This document shows positions 7,270-51,822 of a stretch of DNA of 64,000 bases, one piece after another. A program made the translations under genes and the position numbers. Source of the DNA: Desulfovibrionaceae bacterium (lineage in GTDB: Bacteria; Desulfobacterota; Desulfovibrionia; Desulfovibrionales; Desulfovibrionaceae); contig JAQXJC010000044.1 in the NCBI GenBank assembly GCA_029008115.1, positions 62,001 through 126,000 on the forward strand. The letters run 5' to 3'. The first letter of the stretch is position 1. Each line of letters starts with the position of its first letter. The notes beneath the pieces were generated by a model. It ran no database searches, was not told the DNA's origin, and worked only from the letters and a program-made list of their open reading frames with translations.

Positions 7270-7334
7270 GGGAACTCCTTCAGATGATGGGGATGTTCTG
7301 CGCCGGATGCACAATTCCGACACAGCGGCAGAAA

Positions 7335-7381
7335 GGCCCTCCGGCGCTGACGCCTTGCGGGAGGCGCCGCGACAGAGGGCC
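7335..7381 (-). terminator. Hairpin terminator after purM
   Basis: Outer arms GGCCCTC/GAGGGCC enclose inner arms CGGCGC/GCGCCG. On the minus strand TTTCTG follows. It separates purM from the ycaO-like gene. Confidence 0.5.
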
Positions 7382-7434
7382 GTGAAAAATCCCCCGGCAG
7401 CACCGGAAGACGTGTCTGTTGCGGCAATGCCGGG

Positions 7435-8484
7435 CTAGAAGATGACGGAGACCTGCTCCTCGTCATCCTTGCGGCGGGTGATGGTGCCGATTTCCCATGC
7501 TTTGTGCCCGGTGGCAATGATGCGGTCGCGGGTTTCCGCCGCCACGGCTTCAGGCACCACCAGCACATAGCCGATGCCGCAGTTGAAGATTTGCAGCATT
7601 TCCGGCCAGCTCAGGGAGCCCTGTTCCTTCAGCCAGCTGAAGACGGGCAGCATTTCCCAGGAGCCGAAGGAGATTTCCGCCTTGACCTGCTGGGGCAGGA
7701 CGCGCGGAATATTGTCATAGAAGCCGCCGCCGGTGATGTGCACCATGCCCTTGACGGGCAGATCGCGCAGCAGGTGGCGCACTGTCTCCACATAGATAAT
7801 GGTTGGAGCCAGCAGAACGTCCTTGACGGTTCTGTCCGTGCCGGGGAAGATGTCGTCGCCCTTGAGGCCGCTCTGGGCCAGCAGCTTGCGCACCAGCGAG
7901 AAGCCGTTGGAATGCACGCCCGAGGAGGCAATGCCGATGAGCTTGTCCCCCACGCTGATGGTGGAGCCGTCAATGAGCCTGGCATTGTCCACAATGCCCA
8001 CGCAGAAGCCGGCCAGATCGTATTCGCCATCGGCATACATGGAGGGCATTTCCGCCGTTTCGCCGCCCAGCAGGGCGCAGGCGGACTGGCGGCAGCCTTC
8101 GGCCACGCCGGCGATGACGGCCTGGGCCTTGTCCACGTCCAGCTTGCCCGTGGCAAAATAGTCAAGGAAGAAGAGGGGCTTGGCACCCTGCACCAGAATA
8201 TCGTTGACGCTCATGGCCACCAGATCGATGCCCACGGTATCATGCTTGTCAAATTCAAAGGCCAGCTTCAGCTTGGTGCCCACGCCGTCCGTGCCGGAAA
8301 CCAGCACGGGTTCTTCCATGCCGCTGAGATCCGGACGGAAGAGCCCGCCGAAGCCGCCTATGTCGGAAATGACTCCCTTGGTCTGGGTTTTCGCCACCAC
8401 ATCCTTGATGCGGCTCACAAGGGCATTGCCGGCATTGATGTCAACCCCCGCCTCAGTGTATGCTTTAGAACGCCCGGAAGACAT
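7435..8484 (-). CDS. purM: Phosphoribosylformylglycinamidine cyclo-ligase (AIR synthetase)
   Basis: 349 residues, full length for PurM. The N-terminus SKAYTEAGVDINAGNALV, GTDGVGTKLKLA near residue 65 and ITGGGFYDNIPR in the second half are family signatures. It converts formylglycinamidine ribonucleotide to aminoimidazole ribonucleotide with ATP, the fifth step of purine synthesis, in the cytoplasm. AAGGAGAAGCTC precedes the ATG. No other pur gene is nearby. It is divergent from cobO, with about 120 bases between them. Confidence 0.97.
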   Translation of the reverse strand: MSSGRSKAYTEAGVDINAGNALVSRIKDVVAKTQTKGVISDIGGFGGLFRPDLSGMEEPVLVSGTDGVGTKLKLAFEFDKHDTVGIDLVAMSVNDILVQGAKPLFFLDYFATGKLDVDKAQAVIAGVAEGCRQSACALLGGETAEMPSMYADGEYDLAGFCVGIVDNARLIDGSTISVGDKLIGIASSGVHSNGFSLVRKLLAQSGLKGDDIFPGTDRTVKDVLLAPTIIYVETVRHLLRDLPVKGMVHITGGGFYDNIPRVLPQQVKAEISFGSWEMLPVFSWLKEQGSLSWPEMLQIFNCGIGYVLVVPEAVAAETRDRIIATGHKAWEIGTITRRKDDEEQVSVIF

Positions 8485-8603
8485 GAGCTTCTCCTTAAGT
8501 GAATTACTGAATGCCTTACGGTAGCAGAAAAAAGGTGAATACCCAAGAATATTTTTGGGGCCGTGGCAGCGGGGCGGCGGTCTTTGCGAGAAGGAGCGCG
8601 ACC

Positions 8604-9107
8604 ATGATTATTGTCTATACAGGTAACGGCAAGGGCAAAACGTCGGCCAGCGTGGGGCAGTGCGTCCGTGCGCTGGGGCAGGGCATGCGCGTGGTGTTTG
8701 CGCAGTTCATGAAGCGGGATGGGCAGGCCGGCGAGCAGATTATGCTGAAGCGTCTGCTGGGGGAGAATTTTCTGGCTGGAGGCGCGGGATTTTTTCGCCG
8801 CGAGGAGGAGCGCCCGCAGCACAGGGAGGCGGCGCTGCGCGTGCTGGACTGGGCGCGGGAACGGCTGCCCGGAGCGGCCATGCTGGTGCTGGACGAATCC
8901 CTCTATGCGCTGCGAAGCGGCCTGCTGGAGCGTGCGGAGCTGGAAGACCTGCTGGCGGCGGCACGGGAGGCCGGCTGTCATGTGGTGCTGTCCGGACGCG
9001 ATGCCCCGGCCTGGCTGGCGGAGGCGGCGGACATTGTCTCCCGCGTGGACGAGGTCAGGCATGCGTGGCGTGCCGGGAAGCCCGCCCGGAAGGGCATAGA
9101 GTTCTAG
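8604..9107 (+). CDS. cobO: Cob(I)alamin adenosyltransferase, CobO/BtuR type
   Basis: 167 residues from the ATG at 8604 (AAGGAG seven bases upstream; upstream ATGs in frame lack one). The P-loop GNGKGKTS is at residues 7-14, in the reversed-orientation style typical of CobA/BtuR. A VVFAQFMKR segment and MLVLDES follow. It transfers adenosyl from ATP to cob(I)alamin or cobinamide. The E. coli protein is about 30 residues longer; the missing part is the N-terminal lid helix, often absent in anaerobes. It stands alone, divergent from purM. cbiK and cbiB for the same pathway lie elsewhere in the window. Confidence 0.93.
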   Translation: MIIVYTGNGKGKTSASVGQCVRALGQGMRVVFAQFMKRDGQAGEQIMLKRLLGENFLAGGAGFFRREEERPQHREAALRVLDWARERLPGAAMLVLDESLYALRSGLLERAELEDLLAAAREAGCHVVLSGRDAPAWLAEAADIVSRVDEVRHAWRAGKPARKGIEF

Positions 9108-9190
9108 CCGTGCTGCCCCGGGACATCTTCTCCCGGGTGGCGATATGCCTGGGTTCAGAATCGATCCGGGCGGCAGGCGGGTCTCCGCTG

Positions 9191-9841
9191 TCAGCTTCTG
9201 CGGAAGAGCTTCTGAACATCCATATCGTGCCCGAGAATGAGCACGCGCTCCTCGGCCTGAAAGCGGTGCTCCGGCCCGGGCATGGGGCGGAGCGTCTCGC
9301 CCTGCTTCACGCCGAGTATATTGACGCGGTATCGCTGCCGCACCGCCAGCTCCTTTACCGTTTTTCCCGCCCATTCCCGCGGCGTGGCAATTTCATAGAT
9401 GGAATATTCGGGAGACAGCTTCACATAATCGAAAATATAATCGCTGCTATACCGCATGGCCGCCCAGTCGGCAGTCTGCCGTTCCGGATACACCACATCG
9501 TCAGCGCCATTGCGCAGGAGAAACTTGGCATGCACCTCCCGCGAGGCACGGGAGACAACAAAGCGGGCGCCGAGCTCCTTCAGCAACGCAGTGGTTTCCA
9601 GCGAGCTTTGGAAGTCATCGCCTATGGCCACGACGCACATATCGAAGTTGCTGACACCTACGGAACGCAGAAAGGGTTCGCTTGTGGCGTCGCCAATCTG
9701 GGCATTGGTCACAAAATCAAGCGCCTCGTTCACGCGCTGTTCGCTACGGTCAATGGCGAGCACCTCATGGTTCAGCTCGCCCAGCTTCTTCGCCATGCGG
9801 CGGCCGAAGCGCCCCAGCCCTATCAGCAGTACAGATTTCAT
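9191..9841 (-). CDS. ktrA: Potassium channel regulatory subunit KtrA (RCK domains)
   Basis: 216 residues, typical KtrA size. RCK-N has the Rossmann motif GLGRFG at residues 8-13 and D31 at the end of beta-2. An RCK-C domain follows (GKTVKELAVRQRYRVNILGVKQG). It forms a cytoplasmic octameric ring that binds nucleotide and gates KtrB. It is 14 bases downstream of ktrB on the same strand. It meets cobO tail to tail. Confidence 0.95.
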   Translation of the reverse strand: MKSVLLIGLGRFGRRMAKKLGELNHEVLAIDRSEQRVNEALDFVTNAQIGDATSEPFLRSVGVSNFDMCVVAIGDDFQSSLETTALLKELGARFVVSRASREVHAKFLLRNGADDVVYPERQTADWAAMRYSSDYIFDYVKLSPEYSIYEIATPREWAGKTVKELAVRQRYRVNILGVKQGETLRPMPGPEHRFQAEERVLILGHDMDVQKLFRRS

Positions 9842-9855
9842 GCCTCACTCTCCCA

Positions 9856-11199
9856 TTACCCTACGGCCACATCTTCGGAAGGATAGCGGAAGCTGTCCTG
9901 ACGTATGCCGGAGGCGACGGCAAACACGACAGTCAGGCTCCCGACCCGGCCGAAATACATAAGCAGGATCAGTATCCCGCGGGAAATTTCGGAAAGCTCC
10001 GGCGTAGCGCCCAGGGAAAGCCCCACCGTGCCTATGGCCGAAGCCGCCTCGAAAAATGCTGTCATGAGAGGAAGGTCGTCAAGCACGGAGATAAGCCCTC
10101 CTCCCAGCAGAAAGAGCAGCAGATAGAACATGAAGATGCCGGAAGCACGGCGGAGCGCCATGTCTGGCAGCCTGCGGCCGAATCCCCGCACGTCCCTTCG
10201 ATGCAGAAATATGGACGCAAGCCCGAGGAGAAGCACCGCCAAGGTCGTTACCTTGAAGCCGCCTCCTGTGGAGCCGGGTGCGGCCCCCGCCAGCATGAGC
10301 AGGATGGTGACCAGCTTTCCCTGCGGCGTCAGTTCCGTAATATCAACAGTGCAGAATCCTGCCGTGCGGGGCGTTACGGAGTGGAACAGCGCCGCAAGAA
10401 GAGCATCGGGAATCGGCATATTCCAGTGTCCTCCCCGGAATTCATACAAAAAGAAGAAGAGAAAGCCGGTAAGGAACAGGACGGCGCTGACAAGCAGTAC
10501 CAGCTTGCTCTGGAGCCTGTACCGCCGTATATGTACAGTATGGGAACGAATATCATCCCAGGTCAGAAAGCCGAGGCCGCCAATGGTGACAAGCAGCGCA
10601 ATGACCATGCACACCAGAGGATCAGACGCATATCCCATCAGGGAAAAATACGGCTTCGTCTCTCCAAACAGGTCAAACCCGGCATTGCAGAACGCGGATA
10701 CTGAGTGAAAGACCGACATCCACACCCCCCTGGCCCAGCCCATTTCCGGGCAGAAGCGTATGGAAAGCAGCGCGGCCCCGGCCAGCTCCATGATGAGAAC
10801 CGCTTTCAGAATAAAGCCTGTGAGGCGTACTATTCCGGCCAGATGGGGCGCAACAATGGATTCCTGCATCACCCAGCGCATTCTGAACCCTATCTTCTGG
10901 CCGGAGAATACCGCAATCGCCACAGACATGGTGATGACGCCAAGTCCGCCTACCTGAATCAGCAGGAGAATAACGGCATGGCCGAAATCAGACCAGTACA
11001 GCATGGTATCATGAACGACCAGTCCGGTAACGGTAATGGCGGAGGTTGCCGTAAACAGGGCATCCTGAAACGAGGCGGCGTTCCCGCTTCTGGCGGCAAG
11101 GGGAAGCATGAGAAGGGCCGTACCAACAATAATAAGCAGAAAATATCCCAGAATAATAATCTGGGAAGGCGTAATCCTTTTTCTCGTCAGGAACAGCAT
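9856..11199 (-). CDS. ktrB: Potassium uptake membrane subunit KtrB (TrkH family)
   Basis: 447 residues from the ATG at 11199 (MLFLTRKRITPSQII). The frame stays open to 11310, but that extension is polar and unlike the family. The start is uncertain because no strong ribosome-binding site is visible. The four pore loops carry the selectivity-filter glycines: AITVTGLVV, FCNAGFDLF, PRTAGFCTV and IGTVGLSLG. GAAPGSTGGGFK is the conserved intramembrane-loop region. It is a Na+-dependent K+ uptake subunit in the inner membrane, with KtrA directly downstream. Confidence 0.93.
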   Translation of the reverse strand: MLFLTRKRITPSQIIILGYFLLIIVGTALLMLPLAARSGNAASFQDALFTATSAITVTGLVVHDTMLYWSDFGHAVILLLIQVGGLGVITMSVAIAVFSGQKIGFRMRWVMQESIVAPHLAGIVRLTGFILKAVLIMELAGAALLSIRFCPEMGWARGVWMSVFHSVSAFCNAGFDLFGETKPYFSLMGYASDPLVCMVIALLVTIGGLGFLTWDDIRSHTVHIRRYRLQSKLVLLVSAVLFLTGFLFFFLYEFRGGHWNMPIPDALLAALFHSVTPRTAGFCTVDITELTPQGKLVTILLMLAGAAPGSTGGGFKVTTLAVLLLGLASIFLHRRDVRGFGRRLPDMALRRASGIFMFYLLLFLLGGGLISVLDDLPLMTAFFEAASAIGTVGLSLGATPELSEISRGILILLMYFGRVGSLTVVFAVASGIRQDSFRYPSEDVAVG

Positions 11200-11426
11200 G
11201 GTATTTTCAGCATATAGCTGGCAGATTCCGCTGTCCGCATGCACAGAAACTGCATGCGGATGCGTACAGGATAGCAAAGACACGCGCACCGCATGATGTA
11301 TCCTCTGCAAGGACGCCGCGGCATTCTGTACAATGAAGAGGCGCCCGGCAAGGCCATCCGGCGTGACGGGGGATGCCCGGAGGAGAGGAGCGCACTGTCC
11401 CCTCCCCCGGACATGCGGAGGCGCCG

Positions 11427-11957
11427 CTACTGCGGCAGCATGAGATAGCTGGTCACTTCCCGTACGCCTTCGGTCTGTTTGGCGATCTTCACCGCCAGGT
11501 CCTTTTCGCGGCTGTCGTTGACCACGCCCAGCAGGACGACGCGGTTGGCATTGACCTGCGTGTCAATGCGGGTGGAGCTCAGTCCCTTGGTGGAGATCAG
11601 GTTGCTGCGCAGTTTTGTGGCCAGCGCGAGGTCGCTGCTGTCCGCCGTGCGCGCCGCAAACCAGTGGGGCGTGACGGAGCGCACGCCTTTGCATTTGCGG
11701 GCCAGGCTCACGGCCTTGTTGTGCATGTTCTGGGGCACCTCACCCACAAGATAGACTTTGCCGTAGTAGCAGTACACGGAAATATCCCAGCCCTTGGAGA
11801 AGTCCTGCCCCATGAGCGTGGTCTTCACATCCGTGGCAATGGCCTTGTCGCTGCTGATGGTACCGACCATGCGTTTGTCTTCATAGATGCCGTAGCTGGC
11901 GCAGCCCCAGACCTGCGGGAGAGAAACCAGTAGAAGCAGAAGGCAGAGTATGCGCAT
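11427..11957 (-). CDS. BON-domain lipoprotein (DolP/OsmY-like)
   Basis: 176 residues. The signal sequence ends in QVWGC, giving lipid attachment at about C19. Two BON domains follow, roughly 40-105 (ISVYCYYGKVYLVGEV...) and 110-175 (LISTKGLSSTRIDTQVNANRVVLLGVV). BON proteins bind anionic phospholipid and help keep the outer membrane sound; E. coli DolP/YraP has the same layout. It lies 24 bases downstream of murA on the same strand, so the two are probably co-transcribed. AAGGGGG precedes the ATG. Confidence 0.85.
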   Translation of the reverse strand: MRILCLLLLLVSLPQVWGCASYGIYEDKRMVGTISSDKAIATDVKTTLMGQDFSKGWDISVYCYYGKVYLVGEVPQNMHNKAVSLARKCKGVRSVTPHWFAARTADSSDLALATKLRSNLISTKGLSSTRIDTQVNANRVVLLGVVNDSREKDLAVKIAKQTEGVREVTSYLMLPQ

Positions 11958-11981
11958 GAAGTTCCCCCTTGCGCGGCGCGC

Positions 11982-13235
11982 CTATTCCTGTTCGCGGCGG
12001 ATGCGGGCGCCCACGGCGTTGAGTTTGTGTTCAATGTTTTCATAGCCACGATCCAGATGATAGATGCGGCGCACATGCGTGGTGCCGCGCGCGGCCAGGC
12101 CGGCCAGCACCAGCGAGGCACTGGCCCGCAGGTCCGAGGCCATGACGGGAGCGCCGGTGAGCTGGCGCACACCGTGCACCATGGCGGAGCGGCCGGACAG
12201 CTTGATGTTTGCCCCCATGCGCATGAGTTCGCTCACGTGCATGAAGCGGTTTTCAAAGATGCTTTCCTCCACCATAGAGGTATCTTCGGCCAGGCACATG
12301 AGGGCCATGATCTGGGCCTGCATGTCCGTGGGGAAGCCGGGATAGGGGCGGGTCTGGATGTCCACAGCGTTCAGCGTTCTGCCGGCGCGCCGGGCCAGTA
12401 CGCCTTCGGGGGTGCGCTCAAGGTGCATGCCCATGCTCTGGAGCTTGCGGATGACGGCTTCCAGCGCATCCCAGGGGCAGTCCTTCACCAGAAGTTCGCC
12501 ATCCGTAATGCCGGCGGCCACCAGGAAGGTGCCGGCCTCGATGCGGTCGGGCATGATGGCGTAGGTTGTGCCGCCCAGGCGGGAAACGCCCTGAATCCGG
12601 ATGCAGCTTGTGCCCTGTCCGCTGATGCGTGCGCCGCAGGCATTGAGGAAATTGGCCAGGTCGACGATTTCCGGCTCGCGGGCGGCGTTTTCCAGAATGG
12701 TTTCGCCATCGGCAAGGGCGGCGGCCATGAGCAGATTCTCCGTGCCGCCCACAGTGGGCATGTCAAAGCTGATGTGCGCTCCCGTCAGCCTGCGGCAGCG
12801 GCCGATGATGTTGCCTGCGTTGAGATCGAAGCTGGCGCCCATCTTTTCCAGCCCTTTCAGATGCTGATCCACAGGACGCGCGCCAATGGCGCAGCCGCCG
12901 GGCAGGGCCACGGTGGCTTCGCCCAGCCGTGCCAGCAGCGGGCCGAGGCACAGCACGGAAGCGCGCATGGTGCGCACAAGGTCATAGGGAGCCTCCGGCT
13001 TCAGCGCGCCAGGCGTCATGACCACGGTGCCGTTGGAAAATTCGCAGGCGCAGCCGAGCATGGTCAGCAGCCTGATGGTCGTATGGATGTCCCGCAGATC
13101 GGGCACGTTGGTGAAGGTGACGGGCTCATCCATCAGGATGGAGGCGAAGAGGATGGGCAGCGCGGCATTCTTGGAGCCGCTGACAGGGATGACGCCAGTC
13201 AGCGGGACGCCGCCTTCGATGACGAGTTTGTCCAT
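11982..13235 (-). CDS. murA: UDP-N-acetylglucosamine 1-carboxyvinyltransferase
   Basis: 417 residues, standard length. The substrate-binding K22-N23 (GSKNAAL) and the catalytic cysteine C115 ([12 protein letters not shown]) are both present, so the enzyme should be fosfomycin-sensitive in principle. GFPTDMQAQ carries the general-base aspartate. It adds enolpyruvate to UDP-GlcNAc, the first committed step of peptidoglycan synthesis, in the cytoplasm. A BON-domain lipoprotein follows 24 bases downstream. About 240 bases separate its start from tRNA-His, which reads the other way. Confidence 0.98.
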
Positions 13236-13436
13236 GGCAGTGTTGTTCCTCTGCTCTGCCGCGGCGCTCCGGGGCGTGCGCGGCGCTAGGGTAGGCCGCC
13301 GATCCGCCCGGCTGGCGGGGGCGGGTTCCGTCTGGCGGGCCGGGGCTCAACCCCGCCCTTCATATCCCGGAACCTAGCCTGCTTCCCCGGAAAAATCCAG
13401 AAAAAGTCCGGTGCGAAAATTTTTTACAAAAAATGC

Positions 13437-13463
13437 TTGCCTTTTCCAGGGCAGTTGTATAAA
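13437..13463 (+). promoter_or_regulatory. Probable promoter of tRNA-His
   Basis: TTGCCT (13437-13442) and TATAAA (13458-13463) are 15 bases apart, a little short, in an A+T-rich stretch 15 bases before the tRNA. Confidence 0.5.
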
Positions 13464-13477
13464 CACTTCCTCGTTAC

Positions 13478-13554
13478 GGCGGATGTAGCTCAGTTGGTAG
13501 AGCTCTTGGTTGTGGCCCAGGAGGTCGCGCGTTCAAGCCGCGTCATTCGCCCCA
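13478..13554 (+). tRNA. tRNA-His(GTG), CCA encoded
   Basis: A full cloverleaf forms. The acceptor GCGGATG pairs with CATTCGC. The extra G at -1 (13478) pairs with C73, the hallmark of tRNA-His. The anticodon stem CTTGG/CCAGG holds the loop TTGTGGC with anticodon GTG, and the T-stem is GCGCG/CGCGT. CCA is encoded at 13552-13554. Confidence 0.97.
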
Positions 13555-13564
13555 CAAATTTCAG

Positions 13565-13600
13565 CCGGTTACATGAAGTTCCCATGTGACCGGTTTTTTT
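13565..13600 (+). terminator. Terminator after tRNA-His
   Basis: CCGGTTACATG and CATGTGACCGG form an 11-bp stem with one G-U pair, followed directly by seven T. Confidence 0.9.
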
Positions 13601-13951
13601 ATTGTCACCAAACAATGACCGTTCTCCCGAGCCCTTCCGCCGGGCCTCCGTATGGCATCATTTCATTGCCTTCTTTCCAGAACAGTTGCGGGCCGTCCGT
13701 AGGCACGGTCGTGCTTCCATGATGAGCACGCGCGTACATCATCGCGGGAAGCAGAGGCGCGCCGCGTTGCGGGGTGCTGTCCGGCGTGACATGAGCACCT
13801 CCACAGCATTTTGACGATCTGTCCACAGGATGTGCATGGGGACAGCGGAACATCAGGGGCGGTTCCCCTGGCCCCTGCTATATTCTATATTCCCGCATCG
13901 GGTGCTGCTCTGTGCCTGCCATTCCTCCTCCGAGAGGCGCACAGAGTCGCA
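13601..13951. other. Intergenic gap with no recognisable feature
   Basis: About 350 bases between the tRNA-His terminator and the stop of the convergent sulfatase-fold gene. The only open frame (82 codons, minus, 13605-13853) lacks a ribosome-binding site and protein-like composition. I see no RNA gene or repeat in it. Confidence 0.6.
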
Positions 13952-15430
13952 TCAGCGTCCATGCTCCTCCAGATAGTTGTCCGGCATGGGAAAGTGGAAA
14001 TTTTCCCTGAGCCACAGGCCCCACTGGCAGCGGGTGATGCGCGGCAGTCCCGCCGGCATGAGCCTGGCCAGATTCATATCCTTGCGGTAGACAATGGCCG
14101 GCATGTCCGGCAGGCGCGGCTCGTAATACGACGTGTGGTCGCCAATGATCAGCAGCGTCACGTCGTCGGGCATCTTTGCCACATAGTCCCTGAGGGCGTT
14201 GTCAAACAGCCGCGCGCCGCCGAAGTACCCGGCATGGGGGCTGTGCTCCAGTTCCGCCGGCGGGGGGAAATCCCGTGCGGAATGCATGGAGATGGTGACG
14301 ATAAAATGGAAGAATGGCGCGGGATCATTCAGGAAGCGCGCCGCATAGTCCAGCAGATCAGCGTCATGAATCTGCTGCATGAAGGTCTTCGCATTGCCGT
14401 GATAGCCTGCGGCCTCGTATTCTTCCTTGAAATACAGATGGCTAAAGCCCAGCTTTTCATAGGTCGGGCGCAGGCGCATGAACAGGCCCGTCAGGCCGTG
14501 GAAGAAGCGGCTGGAATAGCCCTCGTCCTGAAGGAGCTGATTGAAGGTTTTGGGAATGGAGGGCAGGGCGCCATACATCAGCGCGCTGGGTGAAGCCTGA
14601 CAGCCGGTCAGCCATTCATAGTCTGAATTTGCAGAGCCGAGCTTCTTCATGCCATCCACGCGAAAGACGGCGGCATGCCGCATCAGCTGCTGCAGAAAGG
14701 GCATGGGATAGGGCCGGGGCTGGGTCAGCAGGCCGAAGTCCAGACTTTCCACCTGAATGACCGCCAGCTTTCTGGTAAAGGGGAGCATGGGCATGTTTTC
14801 CGGCAGGCGCGGGCAGGCGGGCATGGCCAGTGCGGATTGCAGCTCGTCGGTGCGGCCTGTGGCAAGTTCCACAATCCACCCGGGCACATATCCGAAGTAC
14901 ATGACAATTTCCGTGCCGTTCATGCGCTGGCTGACACGCTGCGCGCTGTACAGTCTGGAGTGGAGCAGGCAGCCCAGAGCCACGCAGATGCACAGGCAGA
15001 TGGCCAGTCTGGCCTTGCCGGGCAGTGGCAGATGAAGGCGCCGCAGAAGCAGGAGCTGCGCAAGGAGCACGCACAGGCAGGCGGCAACGCTGGGCAGATG
15101 CACATATTCCAGCATGGCGGTGGCGCCCATGCCGCTGAAATCCTCCCAGCCGGAGAGAATGGCAGCCAGAGAAAGCGGAATGCGCAGGAAATGCAGGTTG
15201 GATGCCAGCACGCTGCCGAGGATGCACTGTGCCACGCAGATGACGGCCGTTGCCCGGCGCGGCAGGCACAGCAGCATGAAGGCCACGGCCAGGTCCGCGG
15301 CAAGATTCGCCTGCTGCACGCCGGTCGTGATGGCGGAATGCAGGGAGTCATTGACGCCGAAGGATTGCAGCAGCCAGGCTTCGCCGGCAGTGAGCAGGCA
15401 GAAGGCGACGATGGCGAACAGATTTTTCAT
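13952..15430 (-). CDS. Membrane-anchored sulfatase-fold phosphotransferase (LtaS/MdoB-like)
   Basis: 492 residues. The N-terminal ~170 residues hold about five hydrophobic helices. From ~205 an alkaline-phosphatase/sulfatase fold follows: VIQVESLDFG (metal-site Glu), GSANSDYEWL (nucleophile region), FHFIVTISMHSARDFPPP and LLIIGDHTSYYEP (metal-binding Asp-His). The order and spacing match LtaS and OpgB, which move phosphoglycerol or phosphoethanolamine onto envelope glycans or lipids outside the cytoplasm. In LtaS the nucleophile is Thr in GKTSD; here the matching position appears to be Ser. The glycan target is unknown. It is on the same strand as pbpC, 116 bases downstream of it, possibly with its own promoter. 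Confidence 0.82.
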   Translation of the reverse strand: MKNLFAIVAFCLLTAGEAWLLQSFGVNDSLHSAITTGVQQANLAADLAVAFMLLCLPRRATAVICVAQCILGSVLASNLHFLRIPLSLAAILSGWEDFSGMGATAMLEYVHLPSVAACLCVLLAQLLLLRRLHLPLPGKARLAICLCICVALGCLLHSRLYSAQRVSQRMNGTEIVMYFGYVPGWIVELATGRTDELQSALAMPACPRLPENMPMLPFTRKLAVIQVESLDFGLLTQPRPYPMPFLQQLMRHAAVFRVDGMKKLGSANSDYEWLTGCQASPSALMYGALPSIPKTFNQLLQDEGYSSRFFHGLTGLFMRLRPTYEKLGFSHLYFKEEYEAAGYHGNAKTFMQQIHDADLLDYAARFLNDPAPFFHFIVTISMHSARDFPPPAELEHSPHAGYFGGARLFDNALRDYVAKMPDDVTLLIIGDHTSYYEPRLPDMPAIVYRKDMNLARLMPAGLPRITRCQWGLWLRENFHFPMPDNYLEEHGR

Positions 15431-15546
15431 GAAAGCTCCTTGCGCGATGTTGGCCGTCTATAGCGCAGGGGAGGGGGAAAGACAACCGGTGCGGGCCTCC
15501 GGCGCCCGTCCGTCAGCATGCGCCGCGGGCTGCGCGGGACATCAGG

Positions 15547-17934
15547 TCAGCGGGCGGCCCGCACCCGCAGCGTCCGGCGGGCGGTGCGTCCCAGATTATC
15601 CACGGCGCGCAGCTCCGTACTGCCGGGACGGGGCGTCCAGAGCAGGGGCGCGTCCGGCGGGCTGGAGCCGAGCAGCGTATCTCCCGCGAACCAGAAGATG
15701 ACGGTGGCGTCCGGCGCCGCGCTCGCTGTCAGCGGAATGCGGCTGCGGTGCGGCGCGGAAAGCTGGAGATGATAGGTAACGCCGGCCTTGGGGATGCGGA
15801 TGCGCGGCGGCGGTCCCGCGCTGTCGGCATTGTCCGGCCGGCATTGGGGCATCCATTCCGGCGGCGCGGGCTTGCGTATGCCGGCCTGCGCGAAGATGCG
15901 GGCCAGATCGCTGGGCCAGAATTCCATGACACGGCGCTCCGTGCGCCCCGGTTCGGGGCGGCAGGCACGCAGTCCGCTGGCTTTGTCCACGAGAATTTCC
16001 TGAAAGATACGTGAATTGCGCACGGGGGACACGCCGGGGATGAAGAGTGTGTCCGTTACGTCCGGGCAGAGGCTGGTATCCGTGTCTCCCGTGGCTGTGC
16101 AGATGGGAATGGAGCGCACATTCAGGCGGGAAAGGCGTTCAGCCAGCGTATCATGCAGGGGCAGCAGGCGGCCCAGTGCCCGCGCCATATCCGTGAAGAG
16201 CGGCAGGGCGGTTTCTCCGCCGACCAGCAGAGGATTGGCGCTGTTGTCAAAATTGCCGACCCAGACCACAAGCACATACTCGCCCAGAAGCCCGGCGGTC
16301 CAGGCGTCGCGGAACCCGTTGGAGGTTCCTGTCTTGAAGCGCAGGGGAATGTTGCGATTGCCGCTGCGCACGCGCTCCTGTGCATGCTCCAGCATGGTCA
16401 GGGTAATACAGGCGGCCTCCGGAGACAGCAGGCGTGCGGGCGCCTCATGCTCTCCGGTGCCTGATGTCAGGCGCAGCGGACGGTGCAGCCCCTGATTCCA
16501 GAGCATGGCGTAGAGGCCGGCCAGCTCGCGCATGCTCACCTCCGCACCGCCAAGCACCAGGCTCAGGCCATAATGCTCCTCGTCGTGAGGCAGGGCCACG
16601 CCCGCGCTCTTGAGAAAAGAGTAGAGTCCCGGATCGCGCAGCCTCTGGGCCAGGGTAATGGCAGGCAGGTTGCGGCTGGCCTTCAGCGCTTCATGGGCGG
16701 GCAGCGGGCCGCGGAAGCCCCTGTCAAAGTTTTCCGGGTCGTAGCCGCCGAAGGAGCGCGGCGAGTCTGCCAGCAGGGTCATGGGATGGATGAGCCCCTG
16801 ATCCAGCGCCAGCGCATAGACAAAGGGCTTGAGCGTGGAGCCCGGGGAACGCCGCGCCCGCGAGCCGTCCACCTGTCCGGCAATGCCCGCGTTGTGGAAG
16901 CTGGCGGAGCCAGCCAGCGAGCGGATTTCCCGCGAAGGCGCGTGCACCAGCAGCGCGGCGGCATTATGCAGTCCGTAGGCCGCGCCCCGGGCTGCAAAAC
17001 GGGCCAGCATTCTTTCCAGCAGATGTTGCTCCGGCAGGGAGATGGTGCTGTGTACAATGCTGTCCGCGCCGGGGGCGGCCAGCAGCTCCGCCGCCACATG
17101 CGGCGCTTCAAAGGGCAGATCGGAGGGAGAGAAGATACGCAGCGGCGGAGGCGTTTCTCCGGCGGCCGGCTCTTCCTCCTCCCCCGTGCCGGCCATGATC
17201 CAGCGGGCAGCCAGCAGGGCGCGGGCCGAGGCAAAGCGCGGGCCGTGCAGGGGATGGCGGCGCACGGGATTCTGAGGAATCACGGTAAGCGCCAGCGCTT
17301 CCTGAACAGTCAGCTGGAAGGCGGACTTGTGGAAATAGACGCGCGCGGCCGCCTCAATGCCTTCTATGTTGCCGCCATAAGGGGCGAGATTGAAATATGC
17401 CTCCAGAATCTGCCGCTTGCTGTAGTGGCGCTCCATGAGCAGCGCCGTCCATATCTGGATAATCTTGCTGTGCCATGAGCCGGAGGCAAGGCCCATGCGC
17501 AGGCGGGCCACCTGCATGGTGATGGTGGAAGCGCCAGTGCGTCGTCCTCCGCCCAGCCACGCGGCGGCGGCACGCAGCAGGGACAGGGGATTCACGCCGG
17601 GATGGCGGAAGAAATACTGATCCTCATACAGCAGCAGGGCATGCACGGCGGCAGGAGCGACGGCCTCCAGCGGGACGTGGATGCGGCGCTTTCCGTCCGG
17701 CGTCAGCCCCATGCGCAGGAGCCTTCCCTGCCTGTCCAGAACCTCGCGGGCAAAGGACACGCCTTCCAGCAGGGGGGGCGGCTGGAGCAGCCCCAGTCCG
17801 CCCCAGAGAAGCGGGGGCAGGAGAAGGACTGTGAGCAGAGCCGCCCGGAGCCACCTGCGGGAACGGGTATCCTCCGTGCCGCCCGGCGTGTCCTGTGACG
17901 GAGGCCGGGCGGCACAGCGGCGGCACGGATTCAT
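15547..17934 (-). CDS. pbpC: Penicillin-binding protein 1C
   Basis: 795 residues. There is a short cytoplasmic tail and one membrane anchor (~28-50), then a GT51 glycosyltransferase (LLYEDQYFFRHPGV with the catalytic Glu; GASTITMQVAR). The transpeptidase has SPGSTLKPF (S-x-x-K), ASRNLPA (SxN-like) and KTGTSNG. The C-terminal ~90 residues are the Ig-like PBP1C tail domain. It polymerises and cross-links peptidoglycan in the periplasm. It overlaps the 3' end of the alpha-2-macroglobulin gene by four bases, so the pair is coupled, the same partnership as pbpC-yfhM in E. coli. Confidence 0.95.
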   Translation of the reverse strand: MNPCRRCAARPPSQDTPGGTEDTRSRRWLRAALLTVLLLPPLLWGGLGLLQPPPLLEGVSFAREVLDRQGRLLRMGLTPDGKRRIHVPLEAVAPAAVHALLLYEDQYFFRHPGVNPLSLLRAAAAWLGGGRRTGASTITMQVARLRMGLASGSWHSKIIQIWTALLMERHYSKRQILEAYFNLAPYGGNIEGIEAAARVYFHKSAFQLTVQEALALTVIPQNPVRRHPLHGPRFASARALLAARWIMAGTGEEEEPAAGETPPPLRIFSPSDLPFEAPHVAAELLAAPGADSIVHSTISLPEQHLLERMLARFAARGAAYGLHNAAALLVHAPSREIRSLAGSASFHNAGIAGQVDGSRARRSPGSTLKPFVYALALDQGLIHPMTLLADSPRSFGGYDPENFDRGFRGPLPAHEALKASRNLPAITLAQRLRDPGLYSFLKSAGVALPHDEEHYGLSLVLGGAEVSMRELAGLYAMLWNQGLHRPLRLTSGTGEHEAPARLLSPEAACITLTMLEHAQERVRSGNRNIPLRFKTGTSNGFRDAWTAGLLGEYVLVVWVGNFDNSANPLLVGGETALPLFTDMARALGRLLPLHDTLAERLSRLNVRSIPICTATGDTDTSLCPDVTDTLFIPGVSPVRNSRIFQEILVDKASGLRACRPEPGRTERRVMEFWPSDLARIFAQAGIRKPAPPEWMPQCRPDNADSAGPPPRIRIPKAGVTYHLQLSAPHRSRIPLTASAAPDATVIFWFAGDTLLGSSPPDAPLLWTPRPGSTELRAVDNLGRTARRTLRVRAAR

Positions 17935-47704: not shown

Positions 47705-47780
47705 TGGTGGGCAGTGAGGGGCTCGAACCCCCGACCCTCGCCTTGTAAGGGCGATGCTCTACCAGCTGAGCTAACTGCCC
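47705..47780 (-). tRNA. tRNA-Val(TAC), CCA encoded, intact
   Basis: GGGCAGT pairs with ACTGCCC in the acceptor. The anticodon stem TCGCC/GGCGA holds the loop CTTACAA with anticodon TAC. A T-arm with GTTCGAG is present, and A73-CCA is encoded. It marks the left border of the duplicated junction around the A+T-rich insert. Confidence 0.97.
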
Positions 47781-47792
47781 GTGAACCACGCC

Positions 47793-47822
47793 ATATTTGC
47801 CCGAGAATCTTTTCCTTGTCAA
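47793..47822 (-). promoter_or_regulatory. Promoter of tRNA-Val
   Basis: On the minus strand a perfect TTGACA (47817-47822) with AAATAT/CAAATA 17-18 bases on, about 13 bases before the tRNA. It lies in the short spacer between the glycosyltransferase remnant and the tRNA, so the tRNA kept its promoter when the insert arrived. Confidence 0.7.
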
Positions 47823-47832
47823 GCCCGGGCGA

Positions 47833-47951
47833 TCAGGCGAGTAGGTAGTCCCGGCCAGCGCGGAGCCCGCGGCTCTCAAGCCAGGCGGCGGCCTCTTCCG
47901 GCGCACCGTGCCCGGTGAGGCAGATCAGGATGAAGATGCCCGCCGGCAGGG
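47833..47951 (-). pseudogene. Remnant: last ~39 codons of a glycosyltransferase gene
   Basis: This matches the 3' end of the intact glycosyltransferase at 50060-51124. Over 109 aligned bases (47843-47951 against 50070-50178) I count five differences and no gap. Several are silent or conservative in the reading frame (the end is YLLA here, YLIA there; WLES here, WLRS there), and the stop codon is kept. It lacks any start. It sits 52 bases before tRNA-Val, as the intact copy sits 56 bases before the decayed tRNA-Val at 49934. It is therefore a displaced gene end left by insertion or duplication. Confidence 0.88.
47843..47951. repeat. Left copy of a 109-base direct repeat
   Basis: 104 of 109 bases match 50070-50178 in the same orientation. 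The two copies bracket the unique insert 47952-49933. Together with the tRNA-Val pair further out, the repeated unit is about 245 bases on each side. Confidence 0.92.
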
Positions 47952-47960
47952 AATAGGGAA

Positions 47961-47987
47961 AGGAGGGCACTTGGAAGGAGCCCTCCT
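47961..47987 (-). terminator. Hairpin at the end of the island operon
   Basis: AGGAGGGC and GCCCTCCT form an 8-bp stem with an 11-base loop, followed on the minus strand by TTTCCCTATT. It lies about 80 bases past the small lipoprotein gene. The T-run is poor. Confidence 0.4.
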
Positions 47988-48066
47988 GCTTCATAATGGT
48001 ATGCGCATGCCGTATGAATACAGGTATGAGAAAAAAACAGGATTCTGTCCGGAGCGTTATATATTA

Positions 48067-48219
48067 TCACTCTAACATTTGCTTATATAGTCTTTGATCT
48101 TTTTCTATCTGAGCCTTCAGCATATCTCTCTCTGCCTTGAGTTTTTTTACTTCATCAAGATTATCACAGCCTGTACAGAGAAGCCCAAAAATCAGAGCTG
48201 CCAACCATGCCTTTTTCAC
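48067..48219 (-). CDS. Small probable lipoprotein, 50 residues, GTG start
   Basis: It starts with GTG at 48219, with AGGAGG eight bases upstream, and overlaps the stop of the membrane-protein gene as GTGA. MKKAWLAALIFGLLCTGC is a signal peptide with a near-lipobox (CTG-C; a strict lipobox would have Ala or Ser at -3), giving lipidation at C18. The mature ~33 residues are charged and heptad-like (LDEVKKLKAERDMLKAQIEKD), suggesting a coiled coil. I recognise no family. Tight coupling to the membrane protein suggests they act together. The tiny size and coiled coil recall spanin-like or entry-exclusion lipoproteins, but there is no direct evidence. Confidence 0.72.
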   Translation of the reverse strand: MKKAWLAALIFGLLCTGCDNLDEVKKLKAERDMLKAQIEKDQRLYKQMLE

Positions 48220-49061
48220 TGTTCATTCCTCCTGTATGGCATTATGAGCATCAATATTGAAAAATATGTCATTACTCCTTCTGAAATAATTGTATATATA
48301 AAATAAATTGGCTTTCCGAAAAATGGAAAGTTCATGACCTGCTGAATAGTAAGTTCATAGATATAAAGATGTTTTATAATAACCCTAAGAGGCCACGAAA
48401 CACTTCGGTTGTCTATGGCTTCTAGAGTCGTCTTAAGTAATTCTCCAATATTTTGGGCGACCACAGGCTCCATAGTGATCAAGTTATATGTTGAAACTCC
48501 CATGGCTGCGATTGAAGCAATCATGAATGGAATCAAATATTGTTTTAGAACACTATTGACATCTTTTCTGATAGCTGAGTGTCCTGAATATGATTTTTTA
48601 TTAAATAGTACATATTCTGTAATCGCAAGGCATAAAAATATGTATTGTGATTTATGAACGCTTGTTAGAGCGAAGAATGTTAATATGTTAACGGAAAGCG
48701 CAAATGCTACAAAAGCAGCTATAACTCGAACAACATATCCGTGTGAAAAAAATTTATATATTCCAGATTCTATATCTAAAAATGTCTGTAAAAATATTCT
48801 GTATAGGACAAGTTTTATTTGAATAACATGACGTGCTAGGAAAAATGTTAATATTGCAACAAGTAAGTATGTAAAATAGTTATTAGATAAAGGTGCGATA
48901 TAAAACAATCCAAAAAAAGAATGCTCTGCAAATATAAAATATCCAGTAATGTATATAGTTAAAAGATAAAAAAATAGTGTGGAAATGTTTGTACTTTTCG
49001 CAGATAAAGATTCTTCAGTATCGATTTTGTTCTCATTATCTTTAGTAAATTTATCTGACAT
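48216..49061 (-). CDS. Unknown six-helix inner-membrane protein of the A+T-rich island
   Basis: 281 residues; AAGGAG eight bases before the ATG. The first ~25 residues are polar and charged (SDKFTKDNENKIDTEESLSAKS). Hydrophobic helices lie near 28-45, 62-79, 107-130, 136-151, 175-195 and 254-276. A soluble loop at ~200-250 holds no motif I know. Codon choice is A+T-rich and unlike every neighbour outside the island. It is translationally coupled to the 50-residue lipoprotein. The divergent XRE gene could control it. It could be a phage-exclusion, bacteriocin-immunity or transport protein; none is shown by sequence. Confidence 0.8.
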   Translation of the reverse strand: MSDKFTKDNENKIDTEESLSAKSTNISTLFFYLLTIYITGYFIFAEHSFFGLFYIAPLSNNYFTYLLVAILTFFLARHVIQIKLVLYRIFLQTFLDIESGIYKFFSHGYVVRVIAAFVAFALSVNILTFFALTSVHKSQYIFLCLAITEYVLFNKKSYSGHSAIRKDVNSVLKQYLIPFMIASIAAMGVSTYNLITMEPVVAQNIGELLKTTLEAIDNRSVSWPLRVIIKHLYIYELTIQQVMNFPFFGKPIYFIYTIISEGVMTYFSILMLIMPYRRNEQ

Positions 49062-49225
49062 ATCAATTTCGCTCCTTGCTTGTGCAGGTTATTCTGCTTG
49101 ATGCGGGTATCTTCCTGCGCCCAGGAGCGGCTCATGCGTTCTGTGCCGCTCTGGTTCTGGAGCCAGAGTTCAGCGCAAATGGCCGTCCCTGCCAGGACGG
49201 CAAGTACTCCGGCAAAAAACCGCAA
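48959..49225 (-). CDS. Doubtful small ORF with signal-like N-terminus, overlapping the membrane protein start
   Basis: 88 codons from a TTG at 49225 with no good ribosome-binding site. The first ~57 residues (MRFFAGVLAVLAGTAICAELWLQ... then a polar stretch rich in Gln and Arg) have normal G+C content and look like a signal-anchored peptide. The last ~30 run into the A+T-rich gene in another frame and look random. It may be a truncated gene cut at an internal island junction, or chance. Confidence 0.25.
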   Translation of the reverse strand: MRFFAGVLAVLAGTAICAELWLQNQSGTERMSRSWAQEDTRIKQNNLHKQGAKLICQINLLKIMRTKSILKNLYLRKVQTFPHYFFIF

Positions 49226-49356
49226 TGCAGCTGGGGAAAAATTCGCCTTCCCATGTCAGTCATGCAGCCCCCTTTTTCCCGAAAATGTTGAATAGTTATC
49301 TACGACCGCACGTGTTTTCCTTCCTGTCCGGTACGCAGGCACTCCCTTTATTGGGT

Positions 49357-49389
49357 ATTTTGAATAAAATGTCAATAATTGGTTTTTAT
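49357..49389 (+). promoter_or_regulatory. XRE gene promoter with two palindromes
   Basis: TTGAAT (49360-49365) and TTTTAT (49384-49389) are 18 bases apart. ATTTT-GAAT-AAAAT (49357-49370) overlaps the -35, and CAAT-A-ATTG (49373-49381) lies in the spacer. Both are candidate sites for autorepression by the XRE protein. Confidence 0.45.
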
Positions 49390-49446
49390 GCTGTTTTTTG
49401 GGGCATATTTCCCATGTACTCTTTTCGGGCAGGAAAGGAGGTCAGC

Positions 49447-49794
49447 GTGGCCGAACAAAAAAAGCAGCGGCTTGCAACCATTGTAGGAGCTAACATCACT
49501 GCACAGCGACGCCTCATGGGTTGGAATCAGGCTGAATTTGCCGAACGGCTCGGTATTGGCCCTGATTCGCTGTCGCGTATAGAACGGGGGTTGGTAGCTC
49601 CGCGCTTTCCACGTCTTGAGCAGATGGCATCCTTGCTGGAATGCTCGGTGTACGAACTGTTTCAGACGCAGGAAGAGCGCGAGCAGGCGACGGAACGCTC
49701 TGGCACCGTCGGTTCTTTCAGCAGTCTTGATTTGAGCACCCGCCGGGAAGTGATGCTCATGGCAGAAAGAATTATTCAGCTTATGCGTTCCTGA
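49447..49794 (+). CDS. XRE-family helix-turn-helix regulator
   Basis: 115 residues from a GTG at 49447, five bases after AAAGGAGG. Frames further upstream lack a site. The HTH spans ~13-68: IVGANITAQRRLMGWNQAEFAERLGIGPDSLSRIERGLVAPRFPRLEQMASLLECSVYELF. The C-terminus ends with a helix (REVMLMAERIIQLMRS) that may dimerise. It is divergent from the island membrane operon with 385 bases between starts, so it probably controls that operon and itself. Confidence 0.9.
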   Translation: MAEQKKQRLATIVGANITAQRRLMGWNQAEFAERLGIGPDSLSRIERGLVAPRFPRLEQMASLLECSVYELFQTQEEREQATERSGTVGSFSSLDLSTRREVMLMAERIIQLMRS

Positions 49795-49933
49795 TCTATC
49801 ACCCTACCTATATCGTTCAGCCTATTTCACAGTCATGTTATCTTCTTGAGCGGAAAGAATGCGCGCCGTGCGTCATGGCAGGCAGTGTCTTGTCCACGGC
49901 GCAGAGGCTTCTGTATTTTTCAGGAGGCACAGC

Positions 49934-50003
49934 AGGCAGTATATTCCTCGGTAAGCCCTCGCCTTGTAAGGGCGAGGCTCTGCCAGGCATGCAAAAACTG
50001 CCA
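49934..50003 (-). pseudogene. Decayed tRNA-Val copy
   Basis: The 20 bases 49956-49975 are identical to the anticodon arm of tRNA-Val (47735-47754), anticodon TAC included. Flanking D-arm bases (GGCAGAGC) and both acceptor ends (GGCAGT, ACTGCC) are still visible. The T-arm is shortened by four bases and has lost GTTCGAG; no CCA. It cannot be a working tRNA. It lies 56 bases past the stop of the intact glycosyltransferase, mirroring the tRNA-Val/remnant pair at 47.7-47.95 kb. Confidence 0.8.
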
Positions 50004-50059
50004 TGAGCTGCAACAGATTGGCCTGAACCTGCGCATGCTGTCAGACCGCATGTGCCATG

Positions 50060-51124
50060 TCAGGCAATGAGGTAGTCCCGGCCAGCGCGGAGCCCGCGGC
50101 TCCTGAGCCAGGCGGCGGCCTCTTCCGGCGCGCCGTGCCCGGTAAGGCAGATCAGGATGAAGATGCCCGCCGGCAGGGCTTCTCTGGCGATCACGGGAAT
50201 GCCGTGTACCATATTGCCTATCTTGTGCGGATCGATGTCCACCCATGCGCGGATGCGGATGCCGTGTGCCTGAAGGGGGAGGGCGCGCCGCCGGGAAACC
50301 CTGCCGCCTCCGATGACGCAGACCTCCCTGCGGCCTTCCCGCAGCAGATGCCGCGCCAGCCACAGGGCGCGGGTCTGCGTAAAGGCCGCTTCCGCATAAT
50401 GTGCGTCCGTGCGCGTCAGCCTGCCCGGCGGATCATTCCACACAAGGAGAGTCTCCGGCAGTTTTTCCATGAGGACGCCGGCATCCATCCAGCGCAGCCA
50501 CAGCTCCCAGTCCTCGGGGAAGGGGCCTTCCCTGTAGCCGCCATACCGCACCGGCAGCTCCGCGCGAAACATGACGGAAGGATGCGGGATGGGCGTCTCG
50601 CGAAAGCGATTCACGCGCAGCTCCTCGTTGCTGCGGCAGGCGTTCATCCAGTCCACAAGCCGCGCAAAGCCCCCCGCGCGCCGCGCATCGCCGCCAAAGC
50701 GCACCAGACAGGATACCAGCCCTGTTTCCGGGTGGGCGTCCAGAAAATCCCGCTGCCGACGCAGACGGCCGGGCAGGCTTACGTCATCCGCGTCCATGCG
50801 GGCGATGAAGCGTCCGCGTGCCGCCGCCAGCCCCGCATTCAGCGTGCCGGCTATGCCCTGATGCGGCAGATGTAGGACGCGCAGGCGGCGGTCCCGTGCG
50901 GCCAGAACATCCAGCAGGGGGCCCGTGCCATCGGTGGAACCGTCGTCCGCCGCGATGATTTCCAGCGCCGGACAGTCCTGCGCAAGCAGGCTGTCCACGG
51001 CCGCGGTGACGGTGGACGCGGCATTGAACACGGGCAGGAGAACGCTTACATCCGGGATGGAGGGCGGTGCGTCGGTGTGACAGGCGCTGCAAACGGCAGC
51101 GGCGTCGGAAGAACAGGATGACAT
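50060..51124 (-). CDS. Family 2 glycosyltransferase with a C-terminal Rossmann-like domain
   Basis: 354 residues from the ATG at 51124 (MSSCSSDAAA; site weak; the frame is open to 51178). The GT-A domain opens with VSVLLPVFNAASTVTAAVDSLLAQ and has DDGSTDG, the metal-binding D111-A-D113 and E204-D205. After ~262 a separate domain begins, EVCVIGGGRVSRRRALPLQAHGIRIRAWVDIDPHKIG, a nucleotide-binding Rossmann start, ending GHGAPEEAAAWLRSRGLRAGRDYLIA. The acceptor is unknown. Its last ~37 codons are the right-hand copy of the 109-base repeat, so the present 3' end may have come from the inserted unit. Confidence 0.85.
   Translation of the reverse strand: MSSCSSDAAAVCSACHTDAPPSIPDVSVLLPVFNAASTVTAAVDSLLAQDCPALEIIAADDGSTDGTGPLLDVLAARDRRLRVLHLPHQGIAGTLNAGLAAARGRFIARMDADDVSLPGRLRRQRDFLDAHPETGLVSCLVRFGGDARRAGGFARLVDWMNACRSNEELRVNRFRETPIPHPSVMFRAELPVRYGGYREGPFPEDWELWLRWMDAGVLMEKLPETLLVWNDPPGRLTRTDAHYAEAAFTQTRALWLARHLLREGRREVCVIGGGRVSRRRALPLQAHGIRIRAWVDIDPHKIGNMVHGIPVIAREALPAGIFILICLTGHGAPEEAAAWLRSRGLRAGRDYLIA
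50070..50178. repeat. Right copy of the 109-base direct repeat
   Basis: It matches 47843-47951 at 104 of 109 positions. It lies inside the intact glycosyltransferase gene, coding for its last residues. Confidence 0.92.
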
Positions 51125-51153
51125 GGCAGGCTCACACGGCGGTGCGGAAGATA

Positions 51154-51183
51154 TGAAAAAAGCCCCCGTGAGAAACACGGAGG
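51154..51183 (-). terminator. Terminator at the end of the tRNA array
   Basis: CCTCCGTG and CACGGGGG form an 8-bp stem with one G-U pair, followed by CTTTTTTC on the minus strand. It lies ten bases past the last tRNA-Gly and just before the glycosyltransferase start. Confidence 0.85.
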
Positions 51184-51193
51184 CGTACTGACA

Positions 51194-51268
<75 letters not shown>

Positions 51269-51314
51269 AACGGAGCATCCGCCAATGGACGGAAAAGGCG
51301 TTCTCCAGATGCGG

Positions 51315-51389
<75 letters not shown>

Positions 51390-51422
51390 ACGAATGGGGA
51401 GAACGCAACCGCTTCCAAAGAA

Positions 51423-51452
51423 AAAGCCCTTACATCTTTCAGCAAGGGCTTT
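51423..51452 (-). terminator. Terminator inside the tRNA array
   Basis: AAAGCCCTT and AAGGGCTTT form a 9-bp stem followed by TTTTCTTT on the minus strand. It lies ten bases past tRNA-Gly(CCC) and before the last two tRNA-Gly(GCC). Confidence 0.85.
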
Positions 51453-51461
51453 CACAGCTCT

Positions 51462-51536
51462 TGGAGCGGGAAACGGGATTTGAACCCGCGACCTTCAGCT
51501 TGGGAAGCTGACACTCTACCGCTGAGTTATTCCCGC
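51462..51536 (-). tRNA. tRNA-Gly(CCC)
   Basis: Acceptor GCGGGAA/TTCCCGC, anticodon stem TCAGC/GCTGA with loop TTCCCAA (anticodon CCC), CCA encoded. Its backbone is nearly the same as the GCC copies, so the two species share an origin. Confidence 0.97.
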
Positions 51537-51553
51537 AAGGGAAACAGGCATAG

Positions 51554-51628
<75 letters not shown>

Positions 51629-51658
51629 ACGATATGCGAGAAGCACCACTGATGCGTT

Positions 51659-51733
<75 letters not shown>

Positions 51734-51746
51734 ATCAGTCAGCGTG

Positions 51747-51822
<76 letters not shown>

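Follow-up and report, generated by a model that had tools for sequence, protein, structure and literature searches.

We tentatively interpret the locus described here as the remnant of a genomic island integrated at the junction between a glycosyltransferase (GT) gene and a tRNA-Val gene, with the crossover most likely located in the anticodon loop of the tRNA. The duplication of this junction, its decay pattern, and the island affiliation of a regulator gene between the two copies are established. The locus lies in a stretch of 64,000 nucleotides (the window), which is part of contig C44 (141 kb) in a Desulfovibrionaceae draft genome of 1.88 Mb and 52 contigs, placed in the family by the named relatives of its GT protein.

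In our preferred reading, incoming DNA that brought a second version of the junction (3' end of GT, promoter, and 5' part of the tRNA) would have recombined with the resident copy, leaving an intact GT on one side, an intact tRNA-Val on the other side, and the insert between them. The island would have supplied the 5' half of the tRNA and its promoter, and the resident 5' half, once displaced, would have decayed. As tRNA-Val is apparently a single-copy gene, an insertion here must leave one working copy. The agent may have been homologous recombination or a tyrosine integrase. Later deletions would have removed the recombinase along with most of the island, and what remains is an HTH regulator, the scrap of a gene, and an A+T-rich cargo of two genes.

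The duplicated junction

On the minus strand, the intact GT is followed by a decayed promoter and tRNA, the insert, a GT 3' fragment, and finally a promoter and the intact tRNA-Val(UAC) (Table 1). Six tRNA genes (five Gly and one Cys) lie directly upstream of GT at 51194-51822 of the window, the first two tRNA-Gly copies being identical over 76 bp.

The junction is present at 47735-47951 and again at 49956-50178, with a similarity far above chance. Two blocks, collinear in both copies, are well kept: the GT end, a direct repeat of 119 bp with 93% identity, and the anticodon arm, where 29 of 31 bp are identical, whereas 100 shuffled versions of the flank gave a best tRNA match of 22/31. The GT end matches the genome at these two places alone, with no third copy, and a 20-mer of the anticodon arm has exact genome matches only in the intact tRNA and the decayed copy. 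A chance repeat was dropped as an explanation on the basis of these genome matches and the shuffle comparison. Joining of two loci during assembly would also produce such a structure, and the genome is indeed a fragmented draft; however, this is very improbable, as the repeat copies differ at no fewer than ~7% of positions, which makes confusion unlikely, and both flanks are continuous within the contig.

The two copies have diverged unevenly. Inside GT, 107 bp of the repeat contain five differences, while the last four codons of GT, the ~50-bp promoter, and nucleotides 1-15 of the tRNA (the outermost 14-15 nt) are strongly decayed, with gaps. The spacer between the kept blocks is still roughly collinear but differs at 16 of 49 aligned positions, in addition to gaps, and its similarity is marginal by itself (shuffle p 0.02-0.06). 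The promoter of the intact tRNA has a TTGACA box, whereas the second promoter has been reduced to TGACA and broken sequence. Beyond the anticodon arm, no significant similarity was detected between the decayed copy and the 3' half of the tRNA. Relative to the GT of aligned relatives, a gap of ~2 residues is common to both GT ends, indicating that the two copies split within this lineage.

An earlier note on this DNA had described a direct repeat of ~245 bases running through the tRNA. The duplication itself stands and extends to the anticodon arm, but the repeat is not uniform, consisting of two kept blocks with decayed sequence between them, and homology is not demonstrable for the tRNA 3' half. 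Its observation that the tRNA is intact and the gene a fragment on the left, with an intact gene and a decayed tRNA on the right, was borne out by ARAGORN, Rfam, and the Glycos_transf_2 domain.

Table 1. Features of the GT/tRNA-Val locus (window positions unless a contig or locus is named) and related elements elsewhere.
Feature	Position	Strand	Basis
tRNA-Val(UAC), intact	47705..47780	-	ARAGORN; Rfam 71.4 bits
R1 anticodon-arm block, counterpart of 49956-49986; candidate core for attachment	47735..47765	-	repeat comparison
Promoter/spacer of intact tRNA, TTGACA box	47781..47832	-	alignment with tRNA-Val upstream region of same-genus G001
GT 3'-end fragment with stop codon (R1), either displaced or carried in	47833..47951	-	repeat comparison
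A+T-rich part of insert, 33% G+C	47952..49084	.	composition
Putative lipoprotein, 50 aa	48067..48219	-	ORF; lipoprotein matches all sub-threshold
Helical, probably membrane, orphan protein, 281 aa	48216..49061	-	family and relative searches
Segment with truncated small membrane-protein start (MRFFAGVL...)	49085..49363	.	with regulator 82% identical to G309
Regulator cassette: upstream region and HTH_3 gene (49447-49794)	49364..49794	+	Pfam; nucleotide identity to relatives
Decayed tRNA-Val copy, anticodon arm kept, 5' end altered	49956..50001	-	repeat comparison; no tRNA score in ARAGORN/Rfam
Decayed promoter/spacer of second junction (R2)	50002..50059	-	alignment
GT 3' end within intact gene (R2)	50060..50178	-	repeat comparison
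Glycosyltransferase family 2 gene (GT), intact, Glycos_transf_2 domain	50060..51178	-	ORF and domain search
Host integrases 3' of tRNA-Leu(GAG), tRNA-Leu(CAA), tRNA-Ser(GCT), tRNA-Ser(TGA)	contigs C39, C4, C43, C51 (L188-L191)		
~150-bp dispersed repeat, examples	L182:14706-14850, L183:1227-1375, many others in L183-L186		

The insert and its island affiliation

The insert is a mosaic island remnant. Its composition changes from 33% G+C at ~47990-49085 (~1.1 kb) to ~52% G+C at 49085-49955 (~0.9 kb), such that the 2-kb A+T-rich unit described previously holds for the first part but not for the second. In agreement with the three genes and lack of a recombinase that had been reported, the ORFs encode the 50-aa lipoprotein, the 281-aa membrane protein, and the HTH regulator, together with a truncated N-terminal piece, and no recombinase domain was found in them by profile search. 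On contig C44, there was no match to the tyrosine recombinase family (PF00589). The lipoprotein gene overlaps at its start with the stop of the 281-aa gene upstream of it, indicative of an operon. The 281-aa protein belongs to no family, and searches of viral contigs, phages, plasmids, and 198 other genomes of the family gave no relative; among 348 genomes of the order, its gene has one doubtful match and is otherwise absent. Its structure model (pLDDT 52) is too poor for a structure search. With a defence-system library, the noteworthy matches were limited to generic HTH and WYL hits, and no convincing Rfam match was obtained beyond the tRNAs.

The regulator and its upstream DNA were found in accessory regions of other Desulfovibrionaceae, with nucleotide identities of 87% to G005 and 70-83% to several genomes of another genus; positions 49085-49796 are 82% identical to G309. 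In G005 and G195, the genes after the regulator encode an ERF protein, a second conserved protein, and a CbbQ-type ATPase, a module that connects the insert with island DNA. The module stretch in G195 ends with an integrase-like ORF, read from sequence and without a profile score, and tRNA-Leu(GAG). The occurrence of the regulator in accessory islands of relatives and the near absence of the 281-aa gene from the order uphold the foreign, mobile-element origin that had been proposed for the insert. In G309:C19 (L182), at 6397-6991 and 12982-13950, a 515-bp segment present twice (83.5%) follows the HTH regulator cassette; before the first copy, only an 80-bp piece is left of the region upstream of the regulator. 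A ~150-bp dispersed repeat occurs in both orientations and many copies in genomes of one related genus.

A serious rival to our reading is that the junction was duplicated in tandem, or that a circle was integrated by plain homologous recombination, without a site-specific recombinase; two working copies would have existed first, followed by decay of one tRNA and one GT, with foreign DNA arriving or remaining between them. We consider this explanation unlikely, although the insert encodes no recombinase and is a mosaic of differing composition, both copies have the lineage-specific gap in common, and a duplicated unit in G177 demonstrates that such duplications occur in the family: two complete tRNA-Val/tRNA-Asp pairs lie ~10.9 kb apart (~11 kb) in G177:C1 (L164, L167). 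The second anticodon-arm copy in G177 was also considered as a parallel to the decayed copy and was rejected because both copies are complete tRNA genes. A duplication of the full junction, however, should include the 3' half of the tRNA, for which homology is undetectable in the second copy, and the regulator is part of a module seen in islands.

Position of the crossover

The genus is represented by only three species in our comparison, and the tRNA-Val context was checked in full for one of them, G001. In the relatives checked, all of other species and including G001 and G005, GT is not linked to tRNA-Val, and the plain GT/tRNA-Val junction that had been suggested as the empty site was thus not found among them. 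In both G001 and G005, tRNA-Val lies near tRNA-Met and does not adjoin GT, and GT in G005 is followed by other DNA. The upstream region of the intact tRNA aligns with that of tRNA-Val in G001, a member of the same genus. Judged from these sequences, the GT/tRNA-Val junction seems to be specific to this lineage.

Recombination between two junction copies would yield the same structure whatever the position of the crossover within the repeat. Within the repeat, the tRNA anticodon arm is a better candidate core than the GT end, and the anticodon loop is favored because the arm is a well-kept block within an otherwise decayed tRNA copy. Weak support also comes from symmetry: the decayed arm is a perfect 7-7-7 inverted repeat (CCTCGCC-CTTACAA-GGCGAGG), compared with 5-bp arms in the intact tRNA, and this resembles the core layout of tyrosine integrases (PMC8371274). 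A single base change underlies the symmetry, however, and the surrounding 6 kb contain three 7-7-7 repeats of this kind, by chance or otherwise. In addition, tRNA-Val(UAC) apparently serves as an island site in another genome. In G010 (L155, G010:C1:2405000-2421500), ~9 kb (6690-15908) separate an intact tRNA-Val(UAC) from a displaced tRNA-Val 3' fragment that ends at the anticodon loop, the loop reading TTACAA in the fragment versus TTGTAA (its reverse complement). This interval contains TRAP-transporter-like and dehydrogenase-like genes, with IS3-like ORFs nearby (functions read from sequence), and is probably a canonical tRNA-Val island.

The earlier note had favored a site-specific element that crossed over inside the GT 3' end and restored the gene with its own end. 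The displaced resident end would then have gone with the untouched promoter and tRNA, and the tRNA scrap at 49956 would have come in with the element. The foreign insert bounded by a duplicated junction is retained from that proposal; a crossover in the GT end is possible but not favored, and we regard it as rather improbable. It would account for the retention of the GT coding end in both copies, with codon changes that are synonymous in four cases and non-synonymous in two, and for the unbroken run of identity at the repeat's upstream edge. It would also account for the decay of the promoter and tRNA 5' end only in the copy adjoining the intact GT, since decay in non-coding DNA at that place fits a long-useless passenger promoter and tRNA scrap. 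A duplicated gene end is, moreover, the usual geometry for integration into gene 3' ends. However, this model gives no reason for the presence of a tRNA-Val anticodon arm in the element or for its retention at 29 of 31 positions, and the arm in the decayed copy forms a symmetric core of the integrase type. No GT-end fragment comparable to R1 was noticed among the matches listed from other family genomes, and neither the GT-end pattern nor GT relatives were found in viral contigs. A further reading, in which the attachment segment spans the GT end, the promoter, and the tRNA 5' half, so that one insertion keeps both genes working and the element supplies the gene end on one side and the tRNA start on the other, appears improbable as a whole.

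Several observations argue against an island with its crossover in the anticodon loop, which we nevertheless prefer. The insert encodes no recombinase, and the contig gave no tyrosine recombinase match. No empty site was found among the relatives of other species, and none of the relatives checked has the GT/tRNA-Val linkage from which a donor copy could have come. A displaced resident tRNA promoter should not decay much faster than a useless GT fragment, yet it has. Lastly, four tRNA-linked integrases in the host genome all lie 3' of their tRNAs (Table 1); these indicate several ordinary tRNA islands or prophages, from which this locus differs.

Comparison with known systems

Integration into the 3' ends of protein genes, such as icd, is well known. 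As in that case, the gene end is duplicated here to the stop codon, with an intact gene on one side and a fragment on the other; the repeat reaches the GT stop codon and the gene is intact, and either copy may be the native one. Unlike icd-type integration, the repeat continues past the gene into the tRNA and there is no integrase. Insertion of dusA-associated islands gives the target gene a new 5' end and a new promoter (PMC4482086), as may have happened here, but dusA is a protein gene, and those islands possess an integrase and 21-bp attachment repeats. The HTH-ERF-CbbQ ATPase islands of G195 and G005 share the regulator cassette (70-87% identity), whereas the rest of the module and the integrase are absent from our locus, and the G195 element adjoins tRNA-Leu(GAG).

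Overall, the locus is ordinary to mildly unusual, its main peculiarity being the position of the surviving tRNA beyond the insert, on the far side. A new type of target is not needed, because anticodon-centered islands with a displaced 5' fragment are already known (PMC4383910) and would give this geometry. If the crossover did lie in the anticodon loop, the locus would be another rare tRNA island that restores the 5' half and promoter of its target, and would reveal over what upstream distance host sequence can travel with an element of this kind. Failing that, its interest is local, as a curious case of island decay. It is no pointer to a new kind of system.

The closest comparison is with the Islander collection, in which 159 of 3919 islands have displaced 5' tRNA fragments and 2083 sites are anticodon-centered (PMC4383910). 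Islander looks for an intact tRNA with an end fragment in the same orientation and on the correct side, an integrase (PF00589) inside, and a length of 2-200 kb. Here, no integrase is encoded in the insert ORFs or on contig C44, the insert is barely 2 kb, the fragment is decayed at its outer 5' end (the outermost 14-15 nt), and the duplication runs 119 bp into a protein gene, all of which differ from the Islander 5'-fragment class. By contrast, an intact tRNA and a fragment in the same orientation bracket foreign DNA, the kept 5' part of the tRNA copy lies upstream of the intact tRNA, where Islander expects a 5' fragment (although a decayed 3' half may adjoin it), the match is centered on the anticodon loop, and ~2.2 kb separate the cores, at the lower limit of length. 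Although not a proven member, the remnant resembles this minority 5'-fragment class, and its geometry fits it.
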